This document shows positions 33,015-45,108 of a stretch of DNA of 64,000 nt, piece by piece; the first letter of the stretch is position 1; each line of letters starts with the position of its first letter. Origin of the DNA: Desulfoferula mesophila (GTDB lineage Bacteria > Desulfobacterota > Desulfarculia > Desulfarculales > Desulfarculaceae); NCBI RefSeq assembly GCF_037076455.1, contig NZ_AP028679.1:1131501-1195500 (forward strand), read 5' to 3'. Both the position numbers and the translations under genes were made by a program. The notes under the pieces are model-generated. The model was not told where the DNA came from and searched no databases. It saw nothing but the letters and a program-made list of their open reading frames with translations.

Positions 33015-34781
33015 GTGAGGAATTTTGATCGTAGCGGCAAACGCCCGAGAGCTCGGTTGGGCCTGACGCTGGTAATCATGGTTTGCGGCTTGTTGTTGGC
33101 CGGCACCGCCTGGGCTGCTCCCCCAGCGACGGACCAGGGACGGCTGGTCAGCGCCAAGTGGCTGCAACAGCACCAGAACGAGGCCAACCTGGTGCTCATC
33201 GACGCGTCCCCCACCCAGGATTATCTCAAAGGTCACATCAAGGGAGCGGTGAGCTGCTCCTTTGACAAGGACCATTACATGTCCTACGGCATCAACACCT
33301 CTTACGGCGGCAACGATCTGATCAACAGCCCCACCGATCCCCTGCCTTGGCAGGACGGCCCCACCCCCTACATCCAGCAGGTGATGCGCTCCCTGGGCAT
33401 CAACAACAATTCCAAGGTGGTGGTCTACGACAACGGCGGCCATTTCCGGGCCGCCCGTTTTTATTGGACCCTCACCCACAACGGCGCCAAGGACGCCTAT
33501 ATCCTGGACGGCGGGTTGGCCAAGTGGAAGGCCATGGGCCTGCCCACGGTGACCGAGGTGGCCAAGGCCAAGCCCGGCGATTTCGTGGCCAAGCCGGTGG
33601 GCGACGCCGCCATAGCTACCACCGATTACATCCTGTCCAAGCAGTTCAAGCCCGATACGGTCCTGGTCTACGCGGTGACTCCGGTTTGGTTTTACGGGCC
33701 TTACCAAGCCTATTCCAAGCTGGGCCACATCCCGGGCTCGGTGATGGTCTCCTATCCCGACTACTTCCAAAAGGACAAGACCTGGAAGTCCAAGGAGGAG
33801 TTGCAGCGGCTTTTCGCCTCGGTGGGGGCCACCCCGGACAAGGAGACCATTTGCTATTGCGGCGGCAACCCGGCCGCCTCCTGCCTGTACTTCACCCTGA
33901 AGCACGTGTTGGGCTATCCCAAGGTGCGTTACTACTATCAAGGCTCCACCATGGGCTGGCTCGACGATCCCCGCGACCTGCCCCTGCACACCTATTGGAA
34001 CCAGCACCTGCTGCGCGATCCCTATTTCGTGCGGTGGTGGGGCGGCAAGCGCATTCAATACCTGGTGGGCGACTCCCAGGTGCTGACCGTGGATGTGCGT
34101 TCTCCCCAGGCCTATCAGGCCGGGCACATCCCCTACGCGGTGAACGTGCCGGTGAGCGATCTCACCGGCAAGCTGGGAGCCGACCCGGCCAAGTGGGCCC
34201 AGCTCCTGGGCGACAAGGGAGCGGCGGATTTCAAGCAACTGGTGATCGTGGACGACACCTCCACCCCCAACGCCTGCCTGATGTTCTGGCTGGCCGAGTA
34301 CATGGGACGCCCCAAGGTCTCGGTGCTCAACGGCGGCATGAAGGCCTGGCAGGACCACAAGTTGAAGGTGACCGACAAGCCCACCGTAATCGCGCCAGCC
34401 AAGACCAAGTATGATGTGGCCATCCAACCAGCCAAGATAAAGGCGCGCCCCCAAGCGGCGGTGCGTCTGGCCGATGCCGGGCAAAAGCCCGATTTCCTGG
34501 GCTACCCCAGGGTGTACATCAACGCTTCGGCCAACAGTGCCCAGCTTCCTTTTGATCCGGCGGGCGCCAAGGTAGTGAATATTCCCGCCGGAAAGAACTT
34601 CAATGAATACGGAATATTAGATTTCGCCTCCAATTTGATTAAACTGTACGAGGATGCCGGGGTCTACAAGCAAGCCGAAGTGGTTTGCTACTCCGACAAG
34701 CCCGAAGAAGCTGCGGCGGCCTATTATGCGCTGAGGACCCTGGGCTACCCCAAGGTCATGGTGTATTACCCCGCCAAGTAG
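33015..34781 (+). CDS. Secreted protein with four rhodanese-like domains
   Basis: A periplasmic sulfurtransferase-like protein of 588 residues. A signal peptide (cleaved near residue 35) precedes four rhodanese folds, about 42-178, 195-330, 345-465 and 490-588. In domains 1 and 3 the catalytic Cys position holds Asp (VVVYDNGG; LVIVDDTST). Domains 2 and 4 keep a Cys: C282 in CYCGGNPA and C558 in VCYSDKPEE. It looks like two tandem copies of a normal two-domain thiosulfate sulfurtransferase. GTG 33015 has GAGGAGG 7 bases upstream. It follows the SLC13 gene and probably handles thiosulfate or sulfane sulfur in the periplasm. Confidence 0.88.
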   Translation: MRNFDRSGKRPRARLGLTLVIMVCGLLLAGTAWAAPPATDQGRLVSAKWLQQHQNEANLVLIDASPTQDYLKGHIKGAVSCSFDKDHYMSYGINTSYGGNDLINSPTDPLPWQDGPTPYIQQVMRSLGINNNSKVVVYDNGGHFRAARFYWTLTHNGAKDAYILDGGLAKWKAMGLPTVTEVAKAKPGDFVAKPVGDAAIATTDYILSKQFKPDTVLVYAVTPVWFYGPYQAYSKLGHIPGSVMVSYPDYFQKDKTWKSKEELQRLFASVGATPDKETICYCGGNPAASCLYFTLKHVLGYPKVRYYYQGSTMGWLDDPRDLPLHTYWNQHLLRDPYFVRWWGGKRIQYLVGDSQVLTVDVRSPQAYQAGHIPYAVNVPVSDLTGKLGADPAKWAQLLGDKGAADFKQLVIVDDTSTPNACLMFWLAEYMGRPKVSVLNGGMKAWQDHKLKVTDKPTVIAPAKTKYDVAIQPAKIKARPQAAVRLADAGQKPDFLGYPRVYINASANSAQLPFDPAGAKVVNIPAGKNFNEYGILDFASNLIKLYEDAGVYKQAEVVCYSDKPEEAAAAYYALRTLGYPKVMVYYPAK

Positions 34782-34870: not shown

Positions 34871-35428
34871 TCAGGGCACCAGCTTGGTCTGATCATGACA
34901 TTGGGCGCAGTAGTTCTCGCTCTTGGCATGAACGTGGTGGCACATTTCGCAGTCCAACTCCGTGCCGTAATGGGGAGAGTCGTGCGGGTTGCGGTGCTTC
35001 TTGTCCTGGGGCACGGTCAGCTTGGCCACGGCCTCGCCGGAGGTGTGGCACTCCAGGCACTTGGCCGTGCCCACCGTGGAGCGCTCACCGGTGTCGTGGC
35101 AATCCGCGCAGGACACCCCCTCCAGGGCGTGCATATGCCCCAAGGGCAATTTGCTTCGCAGCAGGGGGGCTTTCTTGCCGTCGTGGCACTCGCGGCATTG
35201 CCCCATATCCTGGCCCTTGGTGGCCGCGTGGTCCTTGGGCAATACCGGCGCCGGCCCGTGGCAGGCCGCGCAGTCGCCGGCCGGGGCGTTTTCCAATTGT
35301 TTGGGAGGGCTGCCCGGCGCGGCGCCGGTTTCGGGGGCGCCCCAGGCAACGACGAGCAGGGCCGCCAGGATGCTCAAGCCCGGCAAGAGCCATCTACAGC
35401 CCAAGCGGCGTTGGTGTGAGCTTCTCAT
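34871..35428 (-). CDS. Periplasmic six-heme cytochrome c
   Basis: An exported multiheme cytochrome of 185 residues. A signal peptide (about 1-36) is followed by six CxxCH heme sites: CAACH, CRECH, CADCH, CLECH, CEMCH and CAQCH, with extra histidines that can serve as second axial ligands. The compact spacing resembles cytochromes of the c3/NapC-like small tetraheme group but with six hemes. It lies downstream of the flavoprotein gene in the same operon, so it probably delivers electrons to that enzyme, as the heme domain does in flavocytochrome c fumarate reductases. Confidence 0.93.
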   Translation of the reverse strand: MRSSHQRRLGCRWLLPGLSILAALLVVAWGAPETGAAPGSPPKQLENAPAGDCAACHGPAPVLPKDHAATKGQDMGQCRECHDGKKAPLLRSKLPLGHMHALEGVSCADCHDTGERSTVGTAKCLECHTSGEAVAKLTVPQDKKHRNPHDSPHYGTELDCEMCHHVHAKSENYCAQCHDQTKLVP

Positions 35429-35460
35429 GATTCCATATCCGTTTCCCGTGGGCGGATTGG

Positions 35461-35493
35461 CGGAAGCCCGGGCCGCGGTGGCCCGGACTTCCG
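35461..35493 (-). promoter_or_regulatory. Intercistronic hairpin between flavoprotein and cytochrome genes
   Basis: CGGAAG-C-CCGGGCC pairs with GGCCCGG-A-CTTCCG around a 5-base loop (13 pairs, one mismatch). There is no T tract. It likely adjusts the ratio of the two messages. Confidence 0.45.
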
Positions 35494-35530
35494 GTTGGGT
35501 CGGCTGGAGTCGGCCTAATATGGCGTCCGA

Positions 35531-37081
35531 TCAGCCGCGGGACTTCTCCTTGGCCGCGTTGGCCCCGGCGATACGGCCGAAGACCAGGCAGTCGGTGGTG
35601 GCGTTGCTGCCCAGGCGCACCGCGCCGTGCACGCCGCCGGTTACCTCGCCGGCCGCGTAGATGCCCGGCACCACCATGCCGTTCAGGTCCAGGAGCTGGG
35701 CCTTGGAGTTGATCTGCACGCCGCCCATGGTGTGGTGCACCTTGGGCCACAGGTACATGCCGTAGAAGGGGGGCTTGGCAATGGGTTGGGAGCTGGCGCG
35801 GAAAGGCTTGCCGAACTCCTCGTCCTTGCCCTTGGCCAAGAAGGCGTTGTAGCGCTTCACCTGCTCCTGCAACCCGGCCGAGTCCACCTTGAAGGCCTGG
35901 GCCAACTCATCCAGGGTGTTGAACTGCTTGACGGTGCCCCTGGCCAGCATCTTGTCCAGACCGTCCACGTACTTGGCCCCGTTCTGGTCGGCGACGCCCA
36001 CCGCCCAGTGGCCGGTCTTGATGATGGCGTCGGCGCGCACCTTGCGGTCGGCCAACTCGTTGACGAAACGCTTGCCGGTCTTGGGATCGACCATGACCCC
36101 AAAGGGGAAGCATCCGCTGATGGCGAAAATGTAACCGATGCCCATGCCCTTTTCCTGGGGGCATCCCCAGGGACCGAGCTGGATCCAGGAGGGCTGCACG
36201 GGAGTGGCCCCGATGCGCAGAAGCTCGACGAGGCCCTCGGCGGTGGCGCCGGGGTGATTGGTGCAATCCAGCGTCTTGTCCAAACGGGGGTCCTGGATCA
36301 TGCGGAAGGGTATGTCGTAGGAGAAGCCGCCGTTGGCCATGATCACGGCCTTGTTGGCCTTGATGAAGGTCTTCTTGCCGCTGCCCGCCTTGGGGAAGGC
36401 GTAGCCGCTCAGGACCTCCACCCCCACCACGCCGTTGGACCCATCCACGATCAAGTGCTCCAGGTAGGTCCTCTTCTGGAGCGGGATGCCTTCCTCCTTG
36501 ACCTTCTTCAACTCCTGGCGAACGATGCCCGCGCCGGAGCGCACGTCGGTCAGGTAGCTGCGGGGCACCGAATGGCCCCCCAAGTGGGTAACCCGGCCCT
36601 TGTAGTCCACGTTCAGATAGTCCAGGGTCCACATCAAGGCGTCCAGAGACTGATCGGCCACCATCATGGCCAGCTCCGGATGGTTCATGTGCAGGCCCGC
36701 CTTGAGCATGTCTTTGTACATCAGCTCGGGGGAGTCCTTGATCCCCTCCTTGGCCTGGAGGGGAGAACCGGTGGCGGCTATGAGGCCGCCGTTGATGATG
36801 CTATTGCCGCCGGGAACCGGCATCTTCTCCAAGATCACGACGTTGGCTCCGGCCTTCTTGGCCTCCAAGGCGGCGGCCAGACCGGCGAACCCGCTGCCGA
36901 TCACGATGACATCGGCTGTTTGGTCCCATTTCTTGGGCAGTTCGGCTGCGTCGGCGGAGGTGGCCTTGCTCAAAAGGCCCGAAGTGGCCAAGCCTACGGC
37001 CGCGGCCGCCCCTCCCGCTTGCTTAAGGAAACTCCGTCTTGATGTTGCGTTCTTGCTGTGGTCCTTTGCCTTGTCGCCCAT
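35531..37081 (-). CDS. Tat-exported FAD reductase of the flavocytochrome c/fumarate reductase family
   Basis: A periplasmic FAD enzyme of 516 residues. A twin-arginine signal (SRRSFLK, residues 14-20) precedes the FAD fold DVIVIGSGFAGLAAALEA. Active-site landmarks of the family are present: TNHPGATAEG, FVNELADR, VHHTMGGV and GEVTGGVHGAVRLGSNA (substrate-binding Arg). The fumarate-binding His in the QAHPT motif of Shewanella FccA is replaced: here the stretch reads WIQLGPWGCP, with Gly at about residue 303. A different unsaturated acid or ketone is therefore likely. GAGGAG 6 bases before ATG 37081 fixes the start. Electrons probably come from the six-heme cytochrome. Confidence 0.9.
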   Translation of the reverse strand: MGDKAKDHSKNATSRRSFLKQAGGAAAAVGLATSGLLSKATSADAAELPKKWDQTADVIVIGSGFAGLAAALEAKKAGANVVILEKMPVPGGNSIINGGLIAATGSPLQAKEGIKDSPELMYKDMLKAGLHMNHPELAMMVADQSLDALMWTLDYLNVDYKGRVTHLGGHSVPRSYLTDVRSGAGIVRQELKKVKEEGIPLQKRTYLEHLIVDGSNGVVGVEVLSGYAFPKAGSGKKTFIKANKAVIMANGGFSYDIPFRMIQDPRLDKTLDCTNHPGATAEGLVELLRIGATPVQPSWIQLGPWGCPQEKGMGIGYIFAISGCFPFGVMVDPKTGKRFVNELADRKVRADAIIKTGHWAVGVADQNGAKYVDGLDKMLARGTVKQFNTLDELAQAFKVDSAGLQEQVKRYNAFLAKGKDEEFGKPFRASSQPIAKPPFYGMYLWPKVHHTMGGVQINSKAQLLDLNGMVVPGIYAAGEVTGGVHGAVRLGSNATTDCLVFGRIAGANAAKEKSRG

Positions 37082-37433
37082 TTTCATCTCCTCGCTAAAT
37101 GAGCCTTGAGCATTGCGATCCACCCTGATGCGCTCCACCTCCCTTCTCGTAACCGTGTGGATGGCGCGCCAAGGTATAACCTTAGTCCACCATAAACCGC
37201 CCGGTGCGGCCGCCGATATGGGCCGCAGGCACCGTTTTGGCTAGGAGGCGGCACTATTGGCCATAGGGTGGAAACCCTAGCGGCGACGCGCGGTGACTTG
37301 CAGGGCGGGAAGGCCCTGTCTTTAACGGGGGATCGGGAGGGAAGCAAAAAGGCTGGCCTCGGCCCCGGGGAAGAGGGGGCCAAGCCCAGCCCTAAAAAAA
37401 AATCCACGTCCCTGGGGACGGGGAAGCGCAGGC
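37082..37433. other. Intergenic region upstream of the flavoprotein gene
   Basis: About 350 bases without a gene. It holds the terminator of the SHOCT lipoprotein gene (listed separately), a small AGGGT-GGAA-ACCCT hairpin (37265-37278) and a short palindrome AAGGT-ATA-ACCTT (37171-37183), roughly 90-100 bases before the flavoprotein ATG, overlapping a possible -10. The palindrome is a weak operator candidate. Confidence 0.35.
37351..37391 (-). terminator. Rho-independent terminator of the SHOCT lipoprotein gene
   Basis: On the minus strand GGCTGG pairs with CCAGCC and an inner CTTGGCCCC with GGGGCCGAG, followed by TTTTT. It begins about 43 bases after the stop codon. Confidence 0.75.
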
Positions 37434-37799: not shown

Positions 37800-38396
37800 C
37801 TAATTTACCTCCAGAAGGCCTTTGTCTTGCAGGGTGCGCAGTAGATGGGCCATGCACTGGTCATAGGGCTGGTTTTCGGTGTCCACCACGATTTCCGAGC
37901 ACTCGGAGGCCTCGAAGGGCGAGCCTATGCCGGTCATGTCCGGGATCTCCCCCTTGCGCGCCCTGGCGTACAGGCCCTTGGGGTCGCGCAGCTCGCAGGT
38001 GTCCAGGGAGCACTTCACAAAGCACTCGCAGTAGTTGTGCCCTTCCAATATCTCGCGCACCATGGCCCGGTTGGACTCCAGGGGGGTGATGAAGGAGACG
38101 ATGACCAGGGAGCCGGATTTGGCCATGAGGCGGGCGATCTCCGCCGCCCGGCGCAGGTTTTCGGTGCGGTCGGCCTCGCTGAAGCCCAGGTCGCGGTTCA
38201 GGCGCTTGCGCACCTGGTCGCCGTCCAAAAAACTGACCCAGTTGTCATGCTTTTTGAGCAGGTCTCTGAGGGCGCCGGCCAGGGTGGATTTGCCGCTGCC
38301 CGGCATGCCGAAAAACCAGATCACGCCGCTTTTGGTGGCAATGTTCCGCGCAAGAATATCCGGGCAAGCGCTGGTTGGTAATTCTTGGGTACTCAT
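37800..38396 (-). CDS. cysC: Adenylylsulfate kinase (APS kinase)
   Basis: Phosphorylates APS to PAPS, the universal sulfate donor. 198 residues, a normal single-domain length. P-loop GMPGSGKST (30-38), the APS-binding stretch DGDQVRKRLNRDLGFSEADR and RTENLRR, IVSFITPLESNR, and KGLYARARKGEIPDMTGI are all present. It ends an operon with a PAPS sulfotransferase 39 bases upstream, so the PAPS is most likely made for sulfation and not for assimilation. No PAPS reductase is visible in the window. Confidence 0.95.
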   Translation of the reverse strand: MSTQELPTSACPDILARNIATKSGVIWFFGMPGSGKSTLAGALRDLLKKHDNWVSFLDGDQVRKRLNRDLGFSEADRTENLRRAAEIARLMAKSGSLVIVSFITPLESNRAMVREILEGHNYCECFVKCSLDTCELRDPKGLYARARKGEIPDMTGIGSPFEASECSEIVVDTENQPYDQCMAHLLRTLQDKGLLEVN

Positions 38397-38435
38397 TAAT
38401 TCACCTGTTTGCCGTATCCAGGGGGTGGTTGGAGT

Positions 38436-39926
38436 TTATTGCCGCGCTGGGCCCTGGGCCGGCGCGTCCGCCATGGCCCGGTGGCGCAACGCCTGGTGCA
38501 CCCGCTGGGCCCAGGCCAGCGCCGTGGGGCCCACCTCGGGGTGGTCGTGGCGGGTGGAGCTTTGCACCTTGCTGAAAAAGGGCTCCAGTTGCTCCTTGTC
38601 CAATTGCAGGATGGGGGCCAGCTCTTCCAGGCAGGCCGCCGGCTGGCGGCAGAAACGGTCGTAGTCGAACAACACGATGTCCTGGGCGTGGTCGTTCAGC
38701 ACGTTTTCATAAACGCAGCTCCAGTAGCGCACCCAGTAGGAGAACTCGGCTATCTCCTCGGGGCAGCGGGGCATGGCGTCGTTGTTGAATCGGAAGGGCT
38801 TGAGGTTGGCCCCGAATTCGTGGTGCCCCAGCCAGTTCATGTATTTCAGGGAAAAGGGGTCTTCCTGGTGCGTTTTCAAAAACCGCTGGTGTTGCGCCAT
38901 CAGGGACTTGGCGTGGTCCAGCGGGTTACGGAAAGGCACCAGGATGATCGCCTCGGGAAAGGCCCTTTTCAGGGAGGCGATGCGCAGCAGGTTGTTGTTG
39001 TTCTTGGCCAGATAGCGCAGGGGCGTCTTGCCCGAGTCCTTGGCGATGATGTTGTGCACGTAGCGGCGGTAGTTGACGAGCACCTCGCGCGGCGGCTTGT
39101 GGGGAGACAGGTGATGCTCGCGCACGTAGGCATCCCGGTCAAAGGTCATCCAGAAGATTTCCTCAAAGGCCTCGGGGCTGTCGTAGTTGACCAGCAGGCG
39201 GTCCTTGTGGGCCCTTTCCTTGGCCTCGGCGTATTGCCGCCGCCCGGCGGAGATGGAGTTCCACAAGTTGGGCGCGGTGATGAAAGGCATGTCCCTGTAG
39301 GTGAGGGTGGCGAAGCGCCCGCTGGCGTAGATCGCTTCCAGGAGTATGGTGGTGCCCGCCCGGGCCAGTCCGGCGACATACACCGGCGGGCCGGGAGGCG
39401 TGGGCAGCTTGCGCCTGGCGGCCAGGGAACAGTCCAGGTCAAAGGCCGCCTTGCGCACCAGGCGGCTGTCCAGGGCCAGATGGTGCAGCAGCCGCGAGCC
39501 CAGGTGGTAGTCGCCTTCCCCCTCGGGGGTCAGCTTTACCCGCAGGACGGCGTAGAGGGCGCCCAGGGCGGCGGCGATGATCTGCACCGAGGGCTCCAGC
39601 AGCAGGGCCGCCGTGGCGGCGAAGCCGCCCAGGAACCACATGCCCACCAGAATGAAGGCCAGGGCGAAACCAGCGGCCATGATGGCCAGGTAGAGCAAGT
39701 TGAGCAGGCTGGCCGCCAAGATGGCGCCCGCGTAGTGGGGGAGGATCTTTTCTTTCCAGTGGTCGGAGGTGTGGGGAGAGCGCACCACCCGCATGACCTT
39801 TTGGGTGGTCGCTTGCAGGTACTTGAGGTTGGCCATCAGCGGCAGGGCGCGGAACAACTCCACGAACACCACCGCCCCCGGCAAACAGGCCAGGGCCTGG
39901 AGCCCCCAATCAGTCCAGGGGGTCAT
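38436..39926 (-). CDS. Membrane-anchored PAPS-dependent sulfotransferase
   Basis: A 496-residue protein. Hydrophobic segments lie at about 8-30, 65-90 and 92-125, then a cytoplasmic sulfotransferase domain (Sulfotransfer_3 type). The 5'-phosphosulfate loop is VAGLARAGTT (184-193) and the 3'-phosphate site ILVPFRNPLDHAKSL. The last part (LFDYDRFCRQPAACLEELAPIL) matches the family's C-terminal helix. It overlaps the small membrane protein gene by 17 bases and precedes cysC. It probably sulfates a membrane-associated lipid or glycan; the acceptor is unknown. Confidence 0.88.
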   Translation of the reverse strand: MTPWTDWGLQALACLPGAVVFVELFRALPLMANLKYLQATTQKVMRVVRSPHTSDHWKEKILPHYAGAILAASLLNLLYLAIMAAGFALAFILVGMWFLGGFAATAALLLEPSVQIIAAALGALYAVLRVKLTPEGEGDYHLGSRLLHHLALDSRLVRKAAFDLDCSLAARRKLPTPPGPPVYVAGLARAGTTILLEAIYASGRFATLTYRDMPFITAPNLWNSISAGRRQYAEAKERAHKDRLLVNYDSPEAFEEIFWMTFDRDAYVREHHLSPHKPPREVLVNYRRYVHNIIAKDSGKTPLRYLAKNNNNLLRIASLKRAFPEAIILVPFRNPLDHAKSLMAQHQRFLKTHQEDPFSLKYMNWLGHHEFGANLKPFRFNNDAMPRCPEEIAEFSYWVRYWSCVYENVLNDHAQDIVLFDYDRFCRQPAACLEELAPILQLDKEQLEPFFSKVQSSTRHDHPEVGPTALAWAQRVHQALRHRAMADAPAQGPARQ

Positions 39927-40134
39927 CTTCCCGGTCTTCCTGCTTTTTCTTGCCTATGCCAAAGAGCCGTTTGATGGGATACCAAAAAAAGGCCAGGATG
40001 GCCAGGATCACGGAGAATATGACCCCCAAAATGGCGCCGATGGCCCCCAGCCCCAACCCGGGACCCACATAGGCCTGGGCAATGCCGGGTGCCAGGAAGA
40101 GCAGGGCGGCGATGAGCGGCAGGGCTATTCGCAT
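39910..40134 (-). CDS. Small membrane protein of the sulfation operon
   Basis: A 74-residue protein with a signal-like first segment (ending AQA), a second long hydrophobic segment (GLGLGAIGAILGVIFSVILAILAFFW) and a charged cytoplasmic tail (KKKQEDREDDP). I do not recognise a family. It overlaps its upstream neighbour by 10 bases and its downstream neighbour by 17, so it is tightly coupled in translation and may bring the two sulfotransferases together. Confidence 0.72.
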   Translation of the reverse strand: MRIALPLIAALLFLAPGIAQAYVGPGLGLGAIGAILGVIFSVILAILAFFWYPIKRLFGIGKKKQEDREDDPLD

Positions 40135-41690
40135 TTGGGCAACTCCTTGAAATAGTCCAAGGGCAAGGCTTTGGCTTCGGAAACGCTCAGGAAGCGGTTC
40201 TTGTCGTCATAGGTGTTGAGGAATTCAAAGACCACCTTGCCGTTTTTATCCACCTCGAAGACCCGCCCCTGTTGCGGGGAGGTTATCAACATCCCGCCAT
40301 CGGGCAGCATTTGGTGCTTACCCTGAATGTGGCTGTAAAAATTGTACTTGGCCCCCGGCAGCAGCACCTTGCTTTTATAGGTCTTGGGGTCGATTTCGAT
40401 GATGCGCGAAACGCCGCGGTGCATGTTGTTGTCAAACACCGTGATGGTTCCCCGCTGGTTCCAGTCGGGGTCGTGTTGGCGCCGGGTCTGGCCTTGGCGC
40501 CACCATTTAACCTTGAGGGTGACCGGATCCATCACCATCACCAGGTCCACCGAGCGCAGGGAGAGCAACAGGTCGCCCGCCTTGAAGCCGGGGTAATGGG
40601 GGGCCAGGTCCTTGGGCAGGGGATCGATGTCGTTGGGGTGCCACTTGCCGCCGCCGTCCAATACCCAGGTGGAACGCGAGTGCTCGTCCAACTGGCGGAT
40701 GCCCATAATATCCAGGCCCGGATTGGCGTCGACCACCGCCTGCAAAGGGATGATTTTCAGGATTTTGCCGCTGGACGCCTCGATCTGCACCAGGCAGTCC
40801 TTGCGCATGGGGTTGTCGGCGGTGGGGCCCCACACCCACAGGGTGCCGTCGTCGCCCAGGGTGATGGAGTGGTGGTAGCCTCCCCTTAGGCGCCAGACGA
40901 GGTTGCCGCACCAGTCGTATTTGGTCAGGGAGTTGCCGTTGTCGTAAGCCACGTAGATGGAGCCGTCGGGGCCGATGTCAAAGCCGTGGGGGAACACGTT
41001 GGCGTCGTCGCGGTGCTCCCAGGGGACGTCTTCCTGGCTGGGCTTCCACAGGTGCTTCACCTTGCCGTCCGGTCCCAGCAAAACCACCCCGTAGCGCTTG
41101 TCGTCAAAATCGAAGGCCCCGAAGATGACCCGGTACATCTTGGGGGCGTCCGGGGACAGGTACATCCTGGGGGGCAGCCTGCGCGAGCGAATGGGCAGGC
41201 CTTCCAGGTTCTGGTATTCGCGGTTGCCGGGGGCCTTGAAGTCCATGGTCACCAGATGCCGGGAAGGCACGATGTCCAAATCGTTGGCCAGCTTTTCTTC
41301 CCAGGTGGTGTTGCCCTCGCCCTGGAACCAGGCCTCCAATTGCTGCACTATGGGATAGGGCCAGGCGCGGGTGGAGTAGACGTACAGGCCCGCGCCGAAA
41401 CCGACCAACAGCACCAGCCACCCGGCGGTTACCACCCGCCAGAAGGCGGCGCGGAAAACAAAGGGCCAGAAGCGGGCCACCCATCCCCAGAAATCGCGCC
41501 CCTTGCGGCGCGCCGGCCAGGCCAGCAACTCGCCGAGGAGCCAAAAGACCACCCCGCCGCCCACCGCCCCCGCCGGCAGGCGCACCGCGGCCTCGCCCCA
41601 GCCGTGATGACTCAACCAAAGTAATTGGGTAATCGCGCCGATGAAGGCGCCCAGCAGGGCCAGCGGGAGACGGGAAAAAAACGCGCGCAT
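40125..41690 (-). CDS. Arylsulfotransferase (ASST)-family membrane protein
   Basis: A 521-residue protein. Three membrane segments (about 8-28, 40-60, 80-107) are followed by a large beta-propeller-like domain of ASST type. Histidine-containing motifs fit the family: FPHGFDIGPDGS, GYHHSITLGDDG, KWHPNDIDPL, QHDPDWNQRG and SHIQGKHQMLPDGGMLI. ASST enzymes move sulfate between aryl esters without PAPS, through a catalytic His. It is first in the operon, followed by the small membrane protein, a PAPS sulfotransferase and APS kinase. The C-terminal domain should face the periplasm. Confidence 0.82.
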   Translation of the reverse strand: MRAFFSRLPLALLGAFIGAITQLLWLSHHGWGEAAVRLPAGAVGGGVVFWLLGELLAWPARRKGRDFWGWVARFWPFVFRAAFWRVVTAGWLVLLVGFGAGLYVYSTRAWPYPIVQQLEAWFQGEGNTTWEEKLANDLDIVPSRHLVTMDFKAPGNREYQNLEGLPIRSRRLPPRMYLSPDAPKMYRVIFGAFDFDDKRYGVVLLGPDGKVKHLWKPSQEDVPWEHRDDANVFPHGFDIGPDGSIYVAYDNGNSLTKYDWCGNLVWRLRGGYHHSITLGDDGTLWVWGPTADNPMRKDCLVQIEASSGKILKIIPLQAVVDANPGLDIMGIRQLDEHSRSTWVLDGGGKWHPNDIDPLPKDLAPHYPGFKAGDLLLSLRSVDLVMVMDPVTLKVKWWRQGQTRRQHDPDWNQRGTITVFDNNMHRGVSRIIEIDPKTYKSKVLLPGAKYNFYSHIQGKHQMLPDGGMLITSPQQGRVFEVDKNGKVVFEFLNTYDDKNRFLSVSEAKALPLDYFKELPKCE

Positions 41691-41815: not shown

Positions 41816-42346
41816 TCAGGCGATGAGGCCGGAGCTTTGCAGGCGCTTGATCACCGGCGGCACCAACAGCCCGCCCGCCGCGCCGAAGGCCATGTTCATG
41901 GCCGAGTTGAGCAGCACGTGCTGAATCATCACCGCCGTCTCCATGCCCGCCATGAGGTCGGCCACCGCCAGGAACAGTCCCCTGGTCAGCGCCGCCGCCG
42001 CGCCGCAGACGAAGCAGGCCACGTAGCTGTAGGCCAGGCGCGGGTACAGGGCAAAGCCCAGATCCACGATCAGTCCCAACAGGCCGTAGCGCACGATGAG
42101 CAGCGGGCCGTCCTTGCCCAGGCCCAGGAACATGCACAACAGCCCGGCCACCACCCCGGCCAGGGTGGCCGCCCCGAAACGCCGCACCACCCCGCGGGCC
42201 AGCAGCAGGAAGAACAGGTTGAAGAACATGGAGTGGCCGGTGAGGTGCAAATGCATACGCAGGGCCGCCCGGGCGATGACGATGAAGGTGCCGCAAAAGC
42301 CCAGGTAGAGCCCGTCGCGCAGGCTGAAACGCTGCCAGATCATCAT
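41816..42346 (-). CDS. Membrane protein, candidate ECF transporter S component
   Basis: A 176-residue protein with about five or six hydrophobic segments (YLGFCGTFIVIARAALRM, SMFFNLFFLLLARGVV, AATLAGVVAGLLCMFLGLG, LIVDLGFALYP). Size and topology fit the substrate-binding S subunit of an energy-coupling-factor transporter, and it is coded with the EcfT and fused EcfA genes. I cannot place it in a named S family, so the ligand is unknown. Its ATG overlaps the stop of the TiaS-like gene (ATGA). It is the last gene of the operon. Confidence 0.65.
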   Translation of the reverse strand: MMIWQRFSLRDGLYLGFCGTFIVIARAALRMHLHLTGHSMFFNLFFLLLARGVVRRFGAATLAGVVAGLLCMFLGLGKDGPLLIVRYGLLGLIVDLGFALYPRLAYSYVACFVCGAAAALTRGLFLAVADLMAGMETAVMIQHVLLNSAMNMAFGAAGGLLVPPVIKRLQSSGLIA

Positions 42347-43080
42347 TTTTTGGCGGCCTTTTTCTTCTTTTTGCCCTCGGGTTGCCACACCCCGTCGCGC
42401 TCGACCACCACCAGCACCGGCTTGCCGCGCCTGAGCATGGGCCTGATCCAGTCCAGGGTGTCCACCCGCTCCTCGGGGCCCAGCTCCTGTCCCTGCTCGC
42501 TCACCACCGCCGCGACCGCGGTCCGGGAGATGATCTCCCCCACGCGGAGCACCCCGCCTACCTCGCGGATGCCTGGCAGGTCGATGAAGCGCCCGTCGTC
42601 GGCGGTGTTGCGCAGTCCCACCCCGGACAGGGCCCCGATGATGCCCTGGCCGGTGGGGCCGTGCCGCCAGGTGAACAGGCCCGGCGTCTCGGCCAGGACG
42701 TAGCCCTCCTCCACCTGGAGCACCTGGGTCTGGGCCCGGCGGCCCAACTCGGCCAGGGCGGCGGGCACCGCCCCCTTCGGGGCCAGGCACAGACCGGGGT
42801 TGGCCTCCTCGTGCAGGTTGGCCAGCATGAACTCCTTGGCCGCGGCGAACACCTCCGCAGGCTCGGCCAGGCTCTCGGCCTGAAGGCAGGCGCTGCTGTT
42901 GTGGGAGGTGTAGGGGATGTCCGGGTGCACCAGGAACTGGTGGCGGGTCACGTCGGCCCCGGCGATGAGCCCCCGGGCGGTCAGCTCGGCCGCCAGGTTG
43001 CGCGACAGGCGGCCGGTGCCGATGGTGTGAGGGTTGTCGGTGTCGTCTATGGCGATGAACAGTTTCAACTCAGGTCTCAC
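42343..43080 (-). CDS. TiaS-like (TCKD/DUF1743-type) protein
   Basis: A 245-residue protein with the opening LFIAIDDTDNPHTIGTGRL, then FLVHPDIPYTSHNSSACLQ, resembling the catalytic domain of archaeal tRNA-Ile2 agmatidine synthetase (TiaS). It lacks the extra DNA/RNA-binding domains of that enzyme. The C-terminus is Lys-rich (KKKKKAAKK). Bacteria do not make agmatidine, so the role is unknown; an ATP-using step on a ligand or RNA is possible. GTG 43080 overlaps the EcfT stop (GTGA), placing it inside a transporter operon. Confidence 0.65.
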   Translation of the reverse strand: MRPELKLFIAIDDTDNPHTIGTGRLSRNLAAELTARGLIAGADVTRHQFLVHPDIPYTSHNSSACLQAESLAEPAEVFAAAKEFMLANLHEEANPGLCLAPKGAVPAALAELGRRAQTQVLQVEEGYVLAETPGLFTWRHGPTGQGIIGALSGVGLRNTADDGRFIDLPGIREVGGVLRVGEIISRTAVAAVVSEQGQELGPEERVDTLDWIRPMLRRGKPVLVVVERDGVWQPEGKKKKKAAKK

Positions 43081-43772
43081 TTTCGCGCGGCGCGGGCGGC
43101 GGGTTTGTCCGCGCCGCCCAGGTTCAGTCCCCGGGCTTGGGCCGAGTCGGCGGCCTCGCCGGCGGTTTGCAGGGCCCGCACCATCAGGGGCAACAGGAGG
43201 CAGTTTACCAGATCGGGCCAGTTGCGCGGCTTGGCCAGTTGGCGGGGGCTCAGGGCCGCGCCCCGCATGCGCTGGGTCAGGGCGATCTCGCGAATCTCCC
43301 TGGCGAAAAAGGGCACGAAGCGCAGGCTGGTGAACACCACGAAGGAAATTTGGCGGGGCAGCAGCCAGCCCATCTCCCGGCTCATGCGGCTCATCTGGCT
43401 GGTGCGCAAAACCAGGGCCCCGGGCAAGAAGAACAGCATGATCTTGAGCCCCACCTTGAGCCCCGGCGCGAAGCCCTCCGCGTAGCCGTAGCGCAGCAAA
43501 AACAGCCCCAGCACCAGGGCTATCTGCACCAGCAGCCAGCGGCCGTCGCGCCACAGGGCCCGCCAGCCCAGCCCGGCCAGGAAATATAGCCCCGCGTCCA
43601 GAGCCAGCAGGCCCAGGAGCCACCCCCAGGCCTCCAGGTACACCGCCGCCAGGATCAACAGCAGGGTGAGCAGCAGCTTGAGCCCTCCGTGCAGGCGGTG
43701 CAGGGGGGAGTCGCCCGCCTGATAGGCCCAGGCCGGCTCCGCGAAACCGCCTCCGCGTCTATCCCTGGACAA
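43077..43772 (-). CDS. EcfT/CbiQ-type energy-coupling transmembrane protein
   Basis: Transmembrane scaffold of an ECF importer, 231 residues, with membrane segments at about 30-70, 80-105 and 195-215. The two coupling helices carry the Ala-Arg-Gly-type motifs ALTQRMRGA and AQARGL that contact the ATPases. Start: AGGAGG lies 6 bases before TTG 43772; ATG 43802 is in frame but lacks a site. It overlaps the fused ATPase gene by 14 bases and the TiaS-like gene by 4. Confidence 0.85.
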   Translation of the reverse strand: MSRDRRGGGFAEPAWAYQAGDSPLHRLHGGLKLLLTLLLILAAVYLEAWGWLLGLLALDAGLYFLAGLGWRALWRDGRWLLVQIALVLGLFLLRYGYAEGFAPGLKVGLKIMLFFLPGALVLRTSQMSRMSREMGWLLPRQISFVVFTSLRFVPFFAREIREIALTQRMRGAALSPRQLAKPRNWPDLVNCLLLPLMVRALQTAGEAADSAQARGLNLGGADKPAARAARK

Positions 43773-45108
43773 GGCGGCCCTCCTGGAGCAGCAGGCGCTC
43801 ATGGGCCCACTCGGGCTGCATCAGGGGATCGTGGGAGGCCAGGAGCACCGTGGAGCCGTGCTCGGCGCTCAGGCGGGCCAGCACCCCCAGCAGGTGGCGG
43901 CGCTGGTCCCAGTCCAGCCCGGCCATGGGCTCGTCGCAGAGCAGCAGGCGGGGCCGGGGGGCCAAAACCGCGGCCAGGGCCACCCGGTGCTGCTCGCCCC
44001 AGCTAAGGGTCAGGGGCGGACGCTGGGCCAAATGGGAGGCCTGGCACAGCTCCAGGGCCACCGCTACCCGTTCGTCTACCTCGGCCGGGGGCAGGCCCAT
44101 GCGCCGGGGGGTGAAGGCCACCTCGGCCCACACCGTTTCCTCGAAGAGCTGGCGCTGGGGGTTTTGCATCAGATAAGCCACTTGGCCGAAGATGGTCTCG
44201 GGCCGGGGCGGGCTTTGCCCCACCACCTCCAGACGGCCTTGCTGGGGCCGCAGCATGCCGGTGAGGCAGCGCAGCAGGGAGCTTTTGCCCGCGCCGTTGG
44301 GTCCGAAAAGATGCACCCGGCGTCCGGGGGCCAGGCTCAGGTCCGCGCCGTTTAGCACCGGTCCGTCGCGCCCCTGGAGGGCCAGGCCTTGGGCCAGGGC
44401 CACGGGGGGTCCGCCCACGGCCGGAGGCTCGGGGGGCAGAGGCAAGGGCTGGGGATGGATGGGCGGCTGAGGGCTCACCCCCTGCCAGCGGCCCTTGTCG
44501 TCCAGTTGGCCGTAGCCGTCGGCCAGGGGAGCCAGGGGCTCGGTGTTGTGCTCGCTGATCAGCAGGGCGTGACCGGCCCGCTTGAGCTGCCCCAGGGTAT
44601 CCACCAGGGCCTGACGCCCGCTTTGGTCCAGCTGGGCCATGGGCTCGTCCAACAGCAGCAGGCGGGGCTCCATGGCCAGCACGGCGGCCAGGCACACCCG
44701 CTGCTTTTGCCCGGCGCTGAGCTCCTCCACGTTGCGCCGGGTCAGGGCCGTGAGCCCCACCGCGGCCAGGGCCCGGTCGCGGCGCAGGCGCACCTCCGCC
44801 CGGCTTAGCCCCAGGTTTTGCGGGGCAAAGGCCACCTCGTCGGCCACCGTGGTGCACAGAAGCTGGGTGTCCACGTTTTGCATGACCATGCCCGGCCGGG
44901 GGCCGGCCAACTCCAGGCGTCCGTTCAATTGGCCGTTTTCCAACAGGCCCTGCACCGCCCGGAGCAGGGTGGTCTTGCCGCAGCCCGAGGGCCCGCACAG
45001 GCACAGGCACTCTCCGGCCCCCAGGGAAAAACCCACCCCGGACAGGGCCTCTCGGGCCCCGCCGGGGTAGGTGTAGCTCAGGTTGTCTATGGTCAGAAGG
45101 GCGCTCAT
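43759..45108 (-). CDS. Fused double ATPase of an ECF transporter (EcfA-EcfA')
   Basis: Two ABC domains in one 449-residue chain. The first (about 5-215) has Walker A GPSGCGKTT, signature LSAGQKQR and Walker B LLLLDEPMAQLD. The second (about 240-449) has GPNGAGKSS, LSWGEQHR and LLLCDEPMAGLD. A Pro-rich linker (about 222-236) joins them. It powers uptake through the EcfT protein. The gene lies 33 bases after the TonB-dependent receptor gene, so outer- and inner-membrane steps are probably coexpressed. Confidence 0.92.
   Translation of the reverse strand: MSALLTIDNLSYTYPGGAREALSGVGFSLGAGECLCLCGPSGCGKTTLLRAVQGLLENGQLNGRLELAGPRPGMVMQNVDTQLLCTTVADEVAFAPQNLGLSRAEVRLRRDRALAAVGLTALTRRNVEELSAGQKQRVCLAAVLAMEPRLLLLDEPMAQLDQSGRQALVDTLGQLKRAGHALLISEHNTEPLAPLADGYGQLDDKGRWQGVSPQPPIHPQPLPLPPEPPAVGGPPVALAQGLALQGRDGPVLNGADLSLAPGRRVHLFGPNGAGKSSLLRCLTGMLRPQQGRLEVVGQSPPRPETIFGQVAYLMQNPQRQLFEETVWAEVAFTPRRMGLPPAEVDERVAVALELCQASHLAQRPPLTLSWGEQHRVALAAVLAPRPRLLLCDEPMAGLDWDQRRHLLGVLARLSAEHGSTVLLASHDPLMQPEWAHERLLLQEGRLVQG

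Follow-up and report, generated by a model that had tools for sequence, protein, structure and literature searches.

The closest described system, as set out in PMC4257720 and PMC6731281, is the sulfation of caprazamycin. There the PAPS enzyme Cpz8 sulfates a triketide pyrone (Tang et al. 2013, cited in PMC4257720 and PMC6731281), and Cpz4, an arylsulfate sulfotransferase (ASST) from Streptomyces, moves sulfate from a phenolic carrier onto the nucleoside antibiotic (PMC6731281, PMC4257720). The two enzymes are encoded together, and the carrier comes from a dedicated type III PKS. The AssT of E. coli CFT073 (3ELQ) is a periplasmic propeller enzyme encoded with DsbL/DsbI, for which the 2026 review PMC13426309 names no PAPS sulfotransferase as partner; the roles of its residues H356, N358, R374 and H436 are described in the same review. 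For most bacterial ASSTs, that review states, neither the natural acceptor nor the physiological role is known (PMC13426309).

The window analysed here is a stretch of 64,000 nucleotides from Desulfoferula mesophila (NZ_AP028679.1, positions 1,131,501 to 1,195,500). From position 41690 down to 37800 it carries a cassette of four ORFs on the minus strand, coding in this order for an ASST-like enzyme, a small membrane protein, a sulfotransferase (ST) and an APS kinase. The ASST and small-protein genes overlap by 10 bases, the small-protein and ST genes by 17, and a gap of 39 bases separates ST from cysC; these positions and spacings had been given in the original prediction, and were confirmed on re-reading. 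The genes, and the sites predicted within them, are as follows.

40125..41690, minus strand: ASST-like enzyme, 521 aa
40632..40640, minus strand: H351-x-N353 of the ASST, aligned to H356-x-N358 of E. coli ASST, invariant in 56 of 56
40473..40475, minus strand: codon of His406 of the ASST, aligned to the transiently sulfated His436 of E. coli ASST, invariant in 56 of 56
39910..40134, minus strand: small membrane protein, 74 aa
38436..39926, minus strand: PAPS-type sulfotransferase (ST) with fused N-terminal membrane domain, 496 aa
39522..39926, minus strand: N-terminal membrane domain of ST, residues 1-135, with the SDHWKEK motif; a separate gene in relatives
39348..39371, minus strand: putative 5'-phosphosulfate-binding loop of ST, GLARAGTT, residues 186-193, near-invariant in the ST alignment
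38901..38936, minus strand: putative 3'-phosphate-binding motif of ST, R333...P335...S341 (R333 in 79 of 80 rows, P335 and S341 in 80 of 80)
37800..38396, minus strand: cysC, APS kinase, 198 aa

Like the Cpz8/Cpz4 pair, the cassette encodes an ASST-type enzyme together with a PAPS-dependent ST. The original prediction held that these two families are not usually coded side by side. This can no longer be maintained, because PMC6731281 and PMC4257720 provide a precedent, and because in the present ST family such pairing is the rule. Compared with the Cpz system as described there, the cassette differs in having both enzymes membrane-anchored, in the fixed presence of two extra membrane families, and in having no recurrent carrier gene at the locus. 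The cassette is a variant of a known two-step sulfation logic, occurring outside the caprazamycin system; no description of it was found among the open-licence papers searched.

The identities first assigned to the APS kinase, the PAPS sulfotransferase and the ASST-type enzyme are borne out by Pfam, alignments and structure models alike. The ASST matches PF14269 (Arylsulfotran_2, 121 bits) and PF05935 (Arylsulfotrans, 33.8 bits), and is composed of three N-terminal transmembrane (TM) helices, at approximately residues 8-104, followed by a β-propeller domain. Comparison of its structure model (pLDDT 90) by VIA gave Z 27.0 with Cpz4 (9kf6; 3.3 Å over 303 residues), in a near tie with E. coli ASST 3ets (Z 26.0). 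Other propellers fall below the ASSTs, the next being 3no2, of unknown function, at Z 22.4. Cpz4 is also the closest solved structure by sequence profile (46 bits, E 3e-11). The window ASST is thus predicted by the model to have the β-propeller fold of arylsulfate sulfotransferases (PF05935/PF14269).

In an alignment of 56 cassette-type ASSTs, reaching down to 19% identity with the window enzyme, H274, H351, N353, Q405, H406 and N421 are invariant, and R379 is kept in at least 90%. Equivalences to E. coli ASST (3ELQ) were obtained through chained alignments, from the cassette ASST profile to ordinary PF05935 enzymes (profile A3) and from there to 3ELQ; the profile was needed because a phmmer search with the PF05935 protein of the same genome matched no solved structure. 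By this route H351/N353 align with H356/N358, R379 with R374, and H406 with H436. H274 is likely to be the counterpart of H252, judged by its order rather than by direct alignment. The catalytic histidine, whose loss would have told against the original prediction, is kept in every one of the 56 relatives, and a dead propeller was ruled out by the invariant catalytic set. C261 and C520 are retained in 88% of the cassette ASSTs, and could form a disulfide bridge. The window ASST shares with E. coli AssT its modelled propeller fold and the equivalents of H356, N358, R374 and H436, and is itself predicted to be periplasmic; it differs in being membrane-tethered, in belonging mainly to PF14269, and in being encoded with an ST. 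It is worth adding that the same genome has two more PF05935 ASST-type enzymes (C1, at 1.93 Mb and 0.98 Mb; L001 1099-2541 and L002 1204-2640), with no evident signal peptide, which resemble one another far more closely than they do the window ASST.

The ST matches PF13469 (Sulfotransfer_3) at 46 bits, and its model (pLDDT 91.9) predicts a sulfotransferase fold. The best folds by VIA are 2z6v and 2zq5, the mycobacterial enzymes STF9 and STF1 (Z 16.8 each), of which 2zq5 is also matched by sequence profile; identity to the window ST is 11-15% over the aligned part. Tyrosylprotein sulfotransferases (TPST) rank after these, and the fold is nearer to STF1/STF9 and TPST (Z about 16) than to Cpz8 (Z 10.3). 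The sequence carries both the 5'-phosphosulfate-binding loop and the 3'-phosphate-binding motif of PAPS-dependent sulfotransferases: in the loop, A188, R189, G191 and T193 are found in all 78 alignment rows with letters, and T192 in 76. A second Sulfotransfer_3 protein is encoded in the same genome at C1:4449489-4450043 (L154, L155), unlinked to the cassette.

Three TM helices precede the catalytic domain of the ST, and the loop between TM1 and TM2, which bears the SDHWKEK motif, is positively charged. In 40 relatives this membrane domain is a gene of its own, of about 125 aa; about 22 others have it fused to the ST, as in the window. It constitutes a family without a Pfam or NCBIfam model.

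The 74-aa small protein likewise matched no Pfam or NCBIfam family. It has a signal-peptide-like start, an A-x-A|Y-[VI]-G-P-G motif, one TM helix, a WYPxKR sequence and a basic tail, and its hydropathy and charge predict an orientation with the YVGPG motif outside and the basic tail inside. Other genomes of the phylum encode long PF01663 proteins, like type I phosphodiesterases/pyrophosphatases, that have the motif at their N-terminus (L137 1450-3198, L139 1435-3180 and L140 271-2007). The domain in these proteins resembles the small protein in its signal-peptide-like start, A-Y-I-G-P-G-A-G, TM helix and aromatic-Pro-basic end. It differs in being the N-terminus of a long protein, with no ST cassette, whereas the cassette version is a free protein of 70-90 aa. 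The YVGPG domain, for which there is no family model, may serve generally as a membrane partner or anchor.

Lysine plus arginine counts along the segments of the ASST are 2/1/7/1, a positive-inside pattern that agrees with an N-in/C-out arrangement. The N-terminal membrane segments originally noted for both sulfotransferases are present in the models and in the hydropathy and charge analysis, and the predicted topology agrees with the placement first suggested, in which the ASST propeller is periplasmic and the ST domain cytoplasmic, on opposite faces of the membrane. A cytoplasmic ST is consistent with the production of PAPS in the cytoplasm.

CysC matches PF01583 (APS_kinase) at 178 bits, and NF003013 above its cut-off. 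Its gene adjoins the cassette in just 6 of the 80 loci. It is found there in the window, in the near relatives L046, L047 and L049, and in L076, L106 and L113; two sister species (G053 and G196) have no cysC beside the cassette, each carrying one elsewhere. On these grounds cysC was rejected as a core part; it is an optional companion that probably supplies PAPS. No PAPS reductase was found in the genome, the sole PAPS_reduct match being a PP-loop protein at 22 bits which scores higher as ATP_bind_3, so that on this point, an assimilatory use of cysC, the original prediction stands. The genome also has an ATP sulfurylase gene and, at C1:4134177-4134620, a second and more distant APS-kinase-like gene (L127, 114 bits). 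The presence of ATP sulfurylase and the absence of PAPS reductase imply that PAPS is not made here for assimilation, and cysC is best read as providing PAPS for sulfation. Strong APS kinases occur in 42 of the 44 genomes with the cassette and in 72 of 148 genomes of the phylum, two sets that differ in taxon make-up and whose rows are non-independent; this excess fits a role in PAPS supply.

Strong ST homologues are present in 4 of the 247 genomes of the phylum (the genome itself, two of the same genus and one of another family), and all four have an ASST beside the ST. The ST profile was run once against 84,980 species genomes and found 118 relatives, from which 80 loci were kept. These are mostly from Pseudomonadota, followed by Thermodesulfobacteriota and Bacteroidota, with single loci in Nitrospinota, Planctomycetota and Fibrobacterota. 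Genes in the relatives were called using a simple purpose-made gene finder and a six-frame HMM scan, and cassette partners were counted by the six-frame scan in the 53 loci whose flanks were long enough on either side. No more than 5 kb from the ST, an ASST was found in 52 of the 53, the YVGPG small protein in all 53 and the SDHWKEK domain in 51; the genome scan used the patterns SDHWKEK and LTYRDMPF, so the presence of the SDHWKEK domain is partly selected, and that of the ASST and small protein is not. The one locus with enough flank in which no ASST was seen is L102. The commonest order is ASST, small protein, SDHWKEK protein, ST. There are also loci in which the ST precedes the ASST and the small gene, and a few in which the ASST is on the opposite strand.

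The grouping of ASST, small protein and ST is more than chance. That the four genes adjoin by chance, cysC being there for sulfate assimilation, is hardly credible: cysC is indeed unlinked in most relatives, but the other genes are linked across phyla, and the genome is without a PAPS reductase. For the ASST, small protein and ST, chance is refuted outright by the counts from the 53 loci. Of the four genes in the original prediction, these three keep together in relatives, and cysC is not part of the conserved core. Every other neighbour is random: among 98 flanking proteins no further conserved neighbour was found, the largest Pfam family having four occurrences and not being a PKS. An apparent link to glycosyltransferases vanished on inspection.

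On the ST tree the phylum labels are intermingled: for each of the two large groups, well-supported branches force at least five label changes, the labels being taken from submitters' titles and therefore indicative only. Copies of the cassette are also found on plasmids, with independent NCBI annotation. The mixed labels and the plasmid copies agree with horizontal spread of the cassette as one unit. A patchy and mobile distribution of this kind, plasmids included, might also be expected if the ST served detoxification or secretion by sulfating phenols or hydrophobic toxins in the membrane, with other proteins exporting or moving the sulfate, and phenol sulfation is a known detoxification route. 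We nevertheless regard this as highly improbable, since no transporter is conserved with the cassette and the intact ASST site would be left unexplained.

The reading that we prefer, although we hold it to be evenly poised between right and wrong, is that of a self-contained, horizontally spread two-step sulfation cassette, in which a sulfo group is relayed from PAPS to a carrier and on to the ASST. CysC, in the operon here and encoded at a distance elsewhere, would make PAPS, and the ST, which its SDHWKEK domain would keep at the cytoplasmic face, would use it to sulfate an acceptor soluble in the membrane; the likeliest is a phenol or other activated carrier lipid already in the cell. The carrier ester would then reach the periplasmic face, perhaps aided by the small YVGPG protein, where the membrane-tethered ASST would take the sulfo group onto His406 and pass it to a periplasmic or surface acceptor (a glycan, lipid or other alcohol). 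The small protein may aid the crossing of the ester or may hold the enzymes together, and we favour neither. Such a relay would explain the near-constant co-encoding of the two enzymes, because an ASST needs an activated sulfate ester and an ST can make one. The two-step relay was already part of the original prediction, and by analogy with the biochemical precedent it is plausible; the flow of substrate from ST to ASST, the carrier, the acceptor, the transmembrane step and the role of the small protein are parts that we infer.

With no gene for making a carrier linked to the cassette, we expect the carrier to be a compound common in membranes, and our guess is a quinol or prenylphenol. The lack of a recurrent carrier gene beside the cassette, for example a type III PKS, also counts against the relay, as does a genome (G133) that has no ST and yet contains a related ASST. 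ASST propellers can, moreover, act as stand-alone phenol sulfotransferases, which again counts against it.

The STs are far more alike than the ASSTs: the median identity between loci is 42% for ST and 25% for ASST, with ST the higher in 94% of 1,711 pairs. Five loci (L055, L080, L081, L097 and L118) have two or three ASSTs for a single ST. Together these observations support a shared donor and diverse acceptors. The solitary ASST-like genes seen away from the cassette in Desulfatibacillum alkenivorans (G036; L043 8643-10019 and L044 8744-10057) point the same way, to one donor step and several acceptor steps. The distances between ASSTs and between STs are weakly correlated (Mantel rho 0.13), which does not support a tight specificity between the enzymes, although saturated distances could hide one. 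This low co-divergence would suit two enzymes that decorate one surface molecule independently, with no relay between them: in the cytoplasm the ST would sulfate a lipid- or glycan-linked precursor, and in the periplasm the ASST would add a second sulfate from environmental phenyl sulfates. Known ASSTs do accept aryl sulfates supplied from outside, pNPS and MUS among them (PMC13426309). Outside donors are, however, hard to square with the near-obligate linkage (52 of 53 loci), and no glycan or lipid gene set recurs near the cassette, so we consider this reading unlikely. Alternatively, the ASST could work in reverse, or as a hydrolase or recycler, removing or exchanging the sulfo group on the exported product of the ST for metabolite export, repair or signalling. 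Its ping-pong chemistry (PMC13426309) is in principle reversible, and a fixed cassette with no acceptor genes would suit a single self-made metabolite. Against this, the transferase-site residues are all kept, and Cpz4 works from donor carrier to acceptor; we judge it very unlikely.

Should the relay be real, molecules in the periplasm would receive sulfate while PAPS stayed in the cytoplasm. A compact cassette that pairs ASST and PAPS sulfotransferase across many phyla offers a direct and testable source of donor. A wider proposal, possible but doubtful, is that of a general Gram-negative sulfo-relay, in which PAPS-derived sulfo groups would cross the inner membrane as esters of a ubiquitous membrane phenol (for example a quinol or prenylphenol) and feed periplasmic ASSTs, which would use them to sulfate molecules of the periplasm or cell surface. 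This would give the ASSTs their missing physiological donor. The cassette also points to the YVGPG small protein and the SDHWKEK domain as two membrane families that Pfam and NCBIfam do not model.

The region just before the ASST gene in the direction of transcription (window 41816-45108, also minus strand) holds an apparent ECF-type transporter set, read from the sequences only as a substrate-binding membrane protein, a CbiQ-like permease and a double ATPase, and apparently unrelated to sulfation. At 34871-37138 a CxxCH-rich multiheme cytochrome c adjoins an FAD_binding_2 flavoprotein with a Tat-like signal, giving a fumarate reductase-like pair, and a rhodanese-like gene is its neighbour at 33015-34781.
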